From positions 1-40,986 of the forward strand of contig CALVKN010000008.1 of the NCBI GenBank assembly GCA_944332715.1: DNA of 40,986 nucleotides. The letters run 5' to 3'. Positions 1 to 8,149 of the stretch are shown here, piece after piece; position 1 is the first letter of the stretch; every line of letters starts with the position of its first letter. The notes under the pieces were generated by a model that was not told where the DNA came from, made no database searches, and saw only the letters and a program-made list of their open reading frames with translations. Source of the DNA: an uncultured Bacilli bacterium. GTDB lineage: Bacteria; Bacillota_I; Bacilli_A; RF39; UBA660. The translations under genes were made by a program, and so were the position numbers.

Positions 1-11
1 CGAGGGGCTTA

Positions 12-46
12 CCTGCCACCGCTCTACTTCATAGAGATGTGGCAGG
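12..46 (-). other. Strong hairpin downstream of the surface-protein gene
   Basis: An 8-bp perfect stem (CCTGCCAC with GTGGCAGG) encloses a 2x2 internal loop and a second 5-bp stem (CTCTA with TAGAG) closed by a 5-base loop. It begins about 95 bases past the stop codon of the surface-protein gene. Neither strand has a T-run after it, so it is not an ordinary intrinsic terminator. A second palindrome, CCGTACGG, lies at 112-119, inside a weaker stem (GCTTG/CAAGC). Hairpins just after the variable region are a known feature of DGR target genes, but here the role is only inferred. A minus-strand open frame with an ATG at 52-54 runs off the left edge; it is too short to call. Confidence 0.6.
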
Positions 47-140
47 ATATTCATCAATCTATTTTATCAACCTTTATCACTCATAGCAAAAAGTATGCCC
101 CGCTTGCCTCACACCGTACGGCGCGTAGACAAGCATTTGC

Positions 141-1580
141 TTAGCCAAGATTCAAAACAAATGGATCAGTACTTGTTCCTGTACCGCCGGAAATTGTAGC
201 TGTGGATGTCAGACTAAAGGACGGGCGAACAGCATTCGTACTGCCCACACCGCCAATACTCACGCCACCACCGCGGCCGGAATCCACGAAGAACGCAGGA
301 TCGGTAAAGTCCATAGTACGGGAAAGTAACCATTCATAATCACCTAAATATAGCCAATTATCTGTTCCATAATTGTCTTCAGATAATGCTGTTGTCCATT
401 TTTCAGGACTTGCTCCATATCCATAATCTGATACATACATTAATCCTATTTTCATTGTTTCTTCATAACCCGTTTGATTTATTCCTACTTCATCATCATA
501 TATTGCTTTTGCAGTATTTATAATATTAAATCCACCAACTTGCCAAGTTGTTTCTGCTATTAGATTTTGCCATTCACTTCCTAGTATATTATAGTATGTT
601 TCATTTAATGTGGTATATATATCTGGTTTGGTACTTGCATCCCAGATATTTCCTTGCGTAACCAAATCAGACTCCCAAGCATAATTTCCATAACTTGTTG
701 CTTTTATTAATTTTACTTGATTATTAAATACTCCAATTATTCTATATTGGTTATCTGCTTCTTGGCAATCTGCTCCGGTTGCTCCAAAGCACACATAGTT
801 ATTTGGATTTGCTCCACTATATCTATAACTATTATCTTGTGCTCCATTTGCTAAATCAGCATCGTGATAATATAGTCCATTATCTCCATCTGTTCCGGTA
901 TATAATGTTTGAGTTATATATTCAGCAAAATTTCCTAAACTTGTTACCATTGGTTCTTCTTGTATTATTAAATTTGCACTAAGACTTTTTCCAGTATTGG
1001 CATTTTGATCACTATCTAGATTTGCAAATATTACTTCTATTTGCCAATCTTGGGTTACTGTTCCAGTCGATGTTATTTCATAATTATCTGCTATTGTGAT
1101 TAACCCTTGAGATGTTGTTATATCAAATCCTGTTTCTCCCCCACTTGTCTTTCTATCTAAGTTTCCAAGTGTTGTTACTTCTGTACCATCTGGATCTGTT
1201 ACCTTTAATAACAACTCTGCTTGTTCATCTACTGTTGTGTATTCAAAATTATTACTTGTAATATCTAAATAAACATAATAATTTCTTGTTGCATTATTTG
1301 TAGCATTATTGGCAGTAAGTGTTGCTCTTGCATATGTACCACCACTTTTATTTCCTGCTCCACTACCAAAATCTTCTTGATTTGCTGTTAAACTTATGGC
1401 ACTTCCTACTTGAAATGATAAGTTATCGGTTGTTGCAGTACCTGCACTAACATTGATATTACCAGTCCCTCCACCTTGAGCTGTAAAGTATGCATAGGTT
1501 GCTCCAACTACTACTGCAATAAATGTTATTACACCAAGAAATGATAACACTAATACTTTTTTCTCATTTTTTACATTCAT
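141..1580 (-). CDS. TasA-like secreted surface protein with candidate hypervariable C-terminus
   Basis: A 479-residue exported protein. The start chosen is the ATG at 1578-1580, which has AAGGAG ten bases upstream; an in-frame TTG at 1658 lacks such a site. Residues about 7-25 form one hydrophobic segment followed by ATYAYFT, the arrangement seen in SipW-processed TasA/camelysin-type proteins. Residues 25-230 are Thr/Asn/Gly-rich and look like a beta-sandwich fibre module. The C-terminal half has two cysteines, a YRIIGVF...VKLIKA stretch and ends with VRPSF followed by a Gly/Thr-rich tail, a layout common in surface proteins of gut Bacillota and reminiscent of C-type-lectin/FGE-like folds. 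Residues 421-457 have a base composition unlike the rest of the gene (see the separate entry). It has its own promoter and lies past the terminator of the yihY operon. The ligand is unknown; adhesion or fibre formation is inference. Confidence 0.8.
   Translation of the reverse strand: MNVKNEKKVLVLSFLGVITFIAVVVGATYAYFTAQGGGTGNINVSAGTATTDNLSFQVGSAISLTANQEDFGSGAGNKSGGTYARATLTANNATNNATRNYYVYLDITSNNFEYTTVDEQAELLLKVTDPDGTEVTTLGNLDRKTSGGETGFDITTSQGLITIADNYEITSTGTVTQDWQIEVIFANLDSDQNANTGKSLSANLIIQEEPMVTSLGNFAEYITQTLYTGTDGDNGLYYHDADLANGAQDNSYRYSGANPNNYVCFGATGADCQEADNQYRIIGVFNNQVKLIKATSYGNYAWESDLVTQGNIWDASTKPDIYTTLNETYYNILGSEWQNLIAETTWQVGGFNIINTAKAIYDDEVGINQTGYEETMKIGLMYVSDYGYGASPEKWTTALSEDNYGTDNWLYLGDYEWLLSRTMDFTDPAFFVDSGRGGGVSIGGVGSTNAVRPSFSLTSTATISGGTGTSTDPFVLNLG
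210..320 (-). other. Candidate DGR variable region (A-depleted tract)
   Basis: These 37 codons encode residues 421-457 of the surface protein. On the coding strand I count A 13, T 34, C 27, G 37, so A is 12% while T is 31%. The coding strand for 361-420 has 26 A in 60 (43%). None of the 37 codons ends in A; 29 end in C or T. The eight G-ending codons (GTG x3, GCG, ACG, ATG, CCG, CTG) look like a fixed scaffold, with NNY codons between them. The tract ends in VRPSF coded by GC-rich codons. DGRs mutate template adenines, mostly in AAY codons, and so leave NNY codons poor in A near the 3' end of C-type-lectin genes. The matching template repeat is not in this window. Confidence 0.55.
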
Positions 1581-4723: not shown

Positions 4724-5217
4724 TATGACTCTTCTTCACTTTCTACTGGGGTATTATTATTCCAAACAATTCCTGAACCAGCAACATTTTTTGCTCCCAT
4801 TATTGTAAATCCTTCACTATTTTCTGTTGCTTCACTAATAAGGGTAAAATCAATATCATAATAACTTAATAAGTTTTCACTAAATTGTTCAAGTGATGCT
4901 GCAGCCTTACTTTGAGCTTCAACTAATGATGTATCCCCTACAAAATTTATAGTTACATAAATAACTCTTCCCTTTACATCAAAAGTAGCTGAGTTAATCA
5001 TTTCATCACTTTCCAAATTAGCAATATATTCTGAGACAAATGTATCCTCAATTGGGTAATCTTCTATATCTTCCAAACGATCCCCATAAACAGATTCACC
5101 ACTTCCAAAAAAGTAAGAAACTGTTACAAATAATATTGCAATAAAACAGATGATGAGTATAAGTCCTAAGACTATTAATATTTTATATTTCCCCCATATC
5201 TCTTTTAATTTATCCAA
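4723..5217 (-). CDS. Small membrane-anchored protein of unknown function
   Basis: About 164 residues with one strong transmembrane segment near the N-terminus (the hydrophobic stretch ILIVLGLILIICFIAILFV) and a soluble outer part containing one compact alpha/beta region (DVKGRVIYVTINF...). I do not recognise the family. The start is uncertain: the TTG at 5215-5217 has AGGAG ten bases upstream; a GTG at 5226 is too close to that site; an ATG at 5241 (172 residues) has no ribosome site. The stop overlaps the ATG of the tandem-SBP/GGDEF gene, so the two proteins are probably made together and may work as a pair; that is inference. Confidence 0.6.
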   Translation of the reverse strand: MDKLKEIWGKYKILIVLGLILIICFIAILFVTVSYFFGSGESVYGDRLEDIEDYPIEDTFVSEYIANLESDEMINSATFDVKGRVIYVTINFVGDTSLVEAQSKAAASLEQFSENLLSYYDIDFTLISEATENSEGFTIMGAKNVAGSGIVWNNNTPVESEEES

Positions 5218-5263
5218 ATTATTCACTCTCCTAAGTAACATAATTATACTACATATTTATTAG

Positions 5264-8149
<2,886 letters not shown>

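Follow-up and report, generated by a model that had tools for sequence, protein, structure and literature searches.

The locus described here raises the question of why the 3′ end of a gene encoding a 479-aa protein contains so little adenine. The window, i.e. the whole stretch of DNA that was analysed, is the entire contig C8 (40,986 bases) of a draft genome (G000; 1.52 Mb, 75 contigs) of an uncultured Bacilli species, and the contig ends at base 1. In our assessment the A-depleted tract is almost certainly the variable region (VR) of a target gene of a diversity-generating retroelement (DGR), made by means of an A-rich template (TR), a reverse transcriptase (RT) and Avd. The sequence-only reading had interpreted the tract as a DGR variable region near the end of a target gene, and the TR/VR pair, RT and Avd found in the genome support this. 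The features are listed in Table 1.

Table 1. Features of the window (positions without a contig name) and of contig C1 of the same genome
Feature	Position	Strand	Description
Target-to-TR spacer	1..140	-	cut by contig end; near-identical to cassette B of G000 to base ~50
Hairpin 2	12..46	-	CCTGCCAC..CTCTAT-GAA-GTAGAG..GTGGCAGG; fold of 1-50
Hairpin 1	102..134	-	after stop codon; GCTTGTCT-A-CGCGCC-GTAC-GGTGTG-AGGCAAGC, 14 bp
DGR target gene	141..1580	-	479-aa protein; ORF
A-depleted NNY tract as first delimited	210..320	-	most of VR and conserved VRPSFSL end
Candidate IMH region	212..236	-	about GCTGTTCGCCCGTCCTTTAGTCTG; conserved VR end and following bases
Variable region (VR)	226..329	-	gapless alignment to TR-B
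Cassette A	C1:1,166-4,761	-	target, TR-A, MutS-domain-I-like protein, Avd, RT
RT-A and Avd	C1:1,166-2,597		cassette A
TR-A	C1:3,240-3,342		within cassette A
Cassette B	C1:82,194-84,555		target B, TR-B, broken MutS-I-like gene, Avd, degraded RT start
TR-B	C1:83,028-83,134		non-coding, A-rich, outside any target gene, adjoins Avd

Composition of the tract and its template

The coding strand of the tract contains 13 A (12%), 27 C, 37 G and 34 T (31%) in 111 bases, and that of positions 361-420 contains 43% A (26/60). The sequence-only reading had described a loss of A with T retained, and all of its numbers hold. A recount also agrees with its statement that no codon of the tract (37 codons) ends in A and 29 end in C or T; the other 8 end in G. 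This is strongly atypical against the whole gene, in which 216 of the 480 codons end in A. Every 111-base segment of either strand of the contig was considered; 13 or fewer A occurred only in 13 overlapping ones (starts 210-222, this strand), and the tract is therefore not a product of chance.

A local compositional effect, i.e. a 3′ end that is foreign, rich in GC or biased in codon use, would agree with positions 1-300 being GC-richer than the rest of the gene. It would not predict the retention of T, and in those C-terminal-domain paralogues of the same genome that match no template, the corresponding stretch mostly contains 32-40% A and 11-17 A-ending codons out of 37. Since, moreover, the template described below accounts for the tract base by base, we assign this explanation a negligible probability.

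TRs were sought by genome searches and in fetched stretches. A search of the genome with positions 1-360 identified C1:83,239-83,549 (89%), with further, weaker similarity on C1, C5 and C16. The near-copy that had been predicted to differ almost only at its own A is TR-B of cassette B. In a gapless alignment that scores A mismatches cheaply, TR-B (ISRNTDNTDNAFNVNSNNGGNVNNDNVNNANAV) and the window VR (LSRTMDFTDPAFFVDSGRGGGVSIGGVGSTNAV) differ at 25 of 37 template A and at 4 of 67 non-A positions (Fisher p=3e-11); symmetric BLASTN also hit TR-B at this place, without a shift in register (77/107 identical). Only one of the 13 A in the window VR faces a non-A of TR-B. The changes comprise 14 A>G, 6 A>T and 5 A>C, distributed over codon positions 1, 2 and 3 as 10, 14 and 1, so that the expected excess at the first two positions (24/25) is borne out, and 13 of the 14 AAY codons of TR-B are altered. 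The tract as originally delimited is real, with its limits slightly displaced from the TR-homologous stretch (226-329).

Comparison with the paralogous target B places the A bias in the VR. Upstream of it the two genes differ at 43 of 301 A and 72 of 397 non-A positions (p=0.93; no A bias), and in the 3′ flank at 5 of 175 (2.9%), whereas the VRs show 25 mismatches in 104 positions, 21 of them at template A; 57% of the template-A columns differ.

The four non-A differences show that the window VR was not copied from TR-B exactly as it stands. Two of them (GCG>ACG, GTG>GTT) are accounted for by the TR of the relative G014, and the true parent is probably a TR-B variant absent from the assembly. 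TR-A was rejected as the source, since aligning it to the window VR requires a gap of 6 bases and changes at 15 of 64 non-A positions. The sequence of the candidate IMH region is common to the window target, target B and the cassette target of the relative G029, and by analogy with the model of Bordetella phage BPP-1 it may function as an IMH.

Cassettes on contig C1 and comparison with a sister species

The window's own contig contains no RT or TR (it ends at base 1). The DGR RT and Avd-like gene predicted from the tract are both present in the genome; the predicted place of RT and template, left of base 1, is only partly borne out, as those that were found lie on contig C1.

Cassette A encodes a target of 394 aa, a MutS-domain-I-like protein (MSL) of 126 aa, Avd (120 aa) and RT (364 aa). 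TR-A and the VR of this cassette differ at 17 of 39 A and at none of 64 non-A positions. RT-A was classified as DGR-type from its motif and profile matches: the best PDB match is 8ub7 (E=5.5e-19), which we take to be the BPP-1 RT, the PHROG "Reverse transcriptase" was matched with E=1e-64, and the motif IGNMTSQ is of the DGR type ([I/V/L]GxxxSQ replacing QGxxxSP), as in nearly all homologues of the genus. Avd matched NF033474 (E=2e-6, below the curated cut-off) and the PHROG "Avd protein of DGR" (E=5e-9). In the gene neighbouring Avd, MutS_I was detected above the Pfam cut-off; MutS-like genes accompany some DGRs, and MSL may act as a DGR accessory. Two further RTs of the genome were rejected as DGR RTs: that on contig C14 (L001:1405-2397, 330 aa) has the motif QGAPSSP and is not DGR-like, and that on contig C17 (L002:1540-2034) is broken by a stop and reads PQGSPASS.

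In cassette B, target B is cut off by the contig end, the RT has been reduced to a remnant of about 90 bases with stops, and the frame of the MSL gene is lost (read by eye; ORFs).

Cassette A occurs at the same chromosomal place in G012, which represents a second species of the genus (G012 and the other named relatives are MAGs, with contigs from draft genomes). The mismatches between the two species number 0/103 in TR, 0/286 in the TR-MSL spacer, 2/381 in MSL, 0/337 in Avd and 0/1,069 in RT, i.e. 2 in 2,176 aligned bases, and the target 3′ end with the following spacer is also identical (0/307). The VR, in contrast, shows 24 differences, all in template-A columns (24/39 vs 0/63 others, p=2e-13). 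Divergence amounts to 4.7% in the 5′ part of the target and to 5-16% in the outer flanks, whereas fpg, beside the cassette (L022:4859-5685 vs L133), is 99.9% identical (1/827) and polA, 1 kb further, differs by 16%. Because a near-identical block including fpg is set in diverged surroundings, the block has probably been exchanged recently; alternatively, it has been kept. The confinement of change to template-A columns is direct evidence that RT-A performs adenine-directed retrohoming in this lineage and has been active recently. For the window VR, A-directed variation is indicated indirectly, through the paralogous target B only. Some possibility of mis-binning is left, though cassette A and the window both flank housekeeping genes.

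These data also bear on an origin that involves no retroelement, in which positive selection on the binding surface of a multigene family, combined with gene conversion among paralogues, would have produced the tract. The family is indeed large (36 matches in the genome, and 31 matches to the C-terminal domain). Conversion may occur, as two targets of G012 (L064 about 6706-7500 on G012:C16 and L133 about 4989-5783 on G012:C3) share about 790 identical bases that include the VR; a recent conversion or duplication event, or an artefact of the assembly, could account for this. Neither process accounts for a non-coding A-rich copy located outside any target gene and adjoining Avd, nor for changes that follow template A alone between species while third positions hardly drift, and we consider such an origin very improbable.

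A further possibility is that the window VR is now a fossil, i.e. a DGR-made sequence that became fixed after its cognate cassette decayed. With neither an RT nor an intact MSL frame left in cassette B, diversification of the window VR may have stopped, and the non-A differences from TR-B, set against the perfect conservation of non-A positions in cassette A, point the same way. RT-A is nevertheless intact and recently active, a TR more similar to the window VR may be located beyond the contig end, left of base 1, and the divergence from target B at template-A columns far exceeds that of the 3′ flank. We regard fixation as possible without favoring it; a DGR origin of the VR is common to both readings.

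Hairpins, proposed mechanism and related systems

Hairpin 1 (full stretch 102-134: GCTTGTCTACGCGCCGTACGGTGTGAGGCAAGC) occurs in the genus in 9 distinct versions with 100% of cells paired; 5 of its 14 pairs show compensatory change, and its covariation score was reached in 0 of 500 shuffles. It was found behind cassette-type targets only; those remote targets of the window genome that were inspected lack it. By analogy with BPP-1 (PMC3240598) this candidate hairpin/cruciform may mark the target for recognition; it may also be a transcription terminator. The stem sequence of hairpin 2 varies among cassettes and its position is kept (alignment with cassettes B, G014 and G029). In G014, a homologous target (75% identical) lies directly before TR-MSL-Avd-RT. 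The presence of hairpin 1 and the following spacer indicates that the window gene is, judged by its sequence, a cassette-type target, and that a further TR likely lies just left of base 1, as the first 140 bases match the cassette spacer; on G012:C16, the spacer of such a target is not accompanied by a TR.

In the mechanism that we propose, the template RNA would be provided by TR-B or by a near-identical TR immediately beyond the left end of the contig. Its reverse transcription by a DGR RT together with Avd would miscopy adenines, and the cDNA would take the place of the gene's 3′ end as far as the fixed VRPSF stretch, with the hairpin behind the stop codon probably helping to mark the target. 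NNY codons would arise at AAY positions of the template, giving a variant family of a secreted, probably ligand-binding protein. RT-A would act on TR-B and the window VR in trans, the RT of cassette B being only a remnant.

The assignment of the element to the known kind of DGR is well supported; it has some unusual traits: an RT-less second cassette, many targets and a covarying hairpin. Like the DGR of BPP-1 (Mtd/TR/Avd/bRT), it shows A-directed TR-to-VR transfer, has RT and Avd, and carries the VR at the 3′ end of the target gene with an inverted repeat behind it (PMC3240598). It differs from BPP-1 in being chromosomal, in its extra MutS-I-like gene and in the order target-TR-MSL-Avd-RT; its 14-bp hairpin, without a GRNA loop, lies about 90 bases behind the VR, as compared with 7-10 bp and 4-34 bases in the phage type. 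A core cassette with far-off genomic targets, including lost-cassette leftovers matching another TR, is also known from Treponema denticola (PMC4891356), but the 1.5-Mb genome analysed here has at least two TRs and three classes of VR, and one cassette retains TR and target in spite of having lost its RT. Cyanobacterial DGRs with dispersed CLec paralogues are similar in that remote variable proteins were detected via VR/TR homology at paralogue 3′ ends (PMC7517822), whereas the proteins described here are secreted, belong to another domain family (near DUF6273) and occur in Bacilli.

Target protein and dispersed targets

The target protein starts MNVKNEKKVLVLSFLGVITFIAVVVGATYAYF and has an N-terminal hydrophobic segment, judged to serve for secretion or anchoring; this is followed by a beta-rich domain and by a C-terminal domain (residues 215-479) that bears the VR and is distantly like DUF6273. 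This similarity is weak, with one paralogue just above the cut-off, and homologues within the genus are 75-80% identical. The structure model contains an N-terminal helix (residues 4-34) and beta strands at residues 51-200 (pLDDT 66-93); the C-terminal part is poor, and mean pLDDT is low (54.6 for the whole target, 48.2 for the C-terminal domain). The C-terminal family profile had no match among PDB sequences, and fold searches with these low-confidence models gave no usable match. The lectin-like character proposed in the sequence-only reading, i.e. a C-type lectin (CLec) fold of the C-terminal domain, was not confirmed. The target, a secreted protein judging from its sequence, would probably bind a ligand. 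In some paralogues, of 600-900 aa, fibronectin type III domains precede the C-terminal domain (L079:379-2265, L066:4186-6795).

About 11 VR-bearing paralogues, of three template classes, are present in the genome. VR/TR comparison placed in the TR-B class (i) the window target, (ii) target B, (iii) a gene at C5:29 kb and (iv) a decayed fragment at C16:12.4 kb, and in the TR-A class target A and those at C5:8.3 kb, C37 and C28:15.8 kb, perhaps joined by C71, a weak assignment with 16/63 non-A changes. The VRs of the third class fit a template known only from relatives; compared with the G029 template, their A and non-A changes are 18/35 vs 4/60 (C2:7.3 kb), 18/35 vs 4/59 (C3:3.8 kb) and 19/33 vs 1/55 (C27:1.0 kb). 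In the relatives this template is positioned behind the RT of a second DGR lineage of the genus (L128 G012:C32, L129 G029:C1, L127 G014:C41), whose RT is about 48-50% identical. The second-lineage RT was not found in the window's draft genome, and the third template was not seen in the stretches of that genome that were read.

The neighbourhoods look chromosomal, with polA and fpg beside cassette A and a DNA ligase-like gene in the window, and a search of viral contigs, sensitive to close relatives only, revealed no relative; the DGR was not observed to be phage-borne.

We tentatively propose a trans-acting network, in which one RT would serve several template cassettes (one of them RT-less) and about 11 dispersed surface-protein genes, with a MutS-domain-I-like accessory and a long covarying hairpin marking cassette targets, and in which cassettes would move between species with only the VR changing.

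DGRs are enriched in Firmicutes and in gut samples according to a large survey, which itself states that its RT-neighbourhood approach misses remote targets (PMC8144416). The window gene would escape surveys of this type (PMC8144416), yet a DGR target proved recognisable from one composition tract even with RT and template on another contig. Our results add an uncultured Bacilli genus with a homologous DGR RT in 23 of 30 genomes, and a natural experiment in the form of a cassette that is near-identical in two species outside the template-A columns. Cassette B, with an intact TR but no RT, offers a way to test whether one DGR cassette complements another in trans.

A decayed 3′ fragment of a VR-bearing target (L024:3440-3740, G000:C16) is located between two housekeeping genes and adjoins several copies of the short repeat CTTCGAAATCTGGTGGGGAG.
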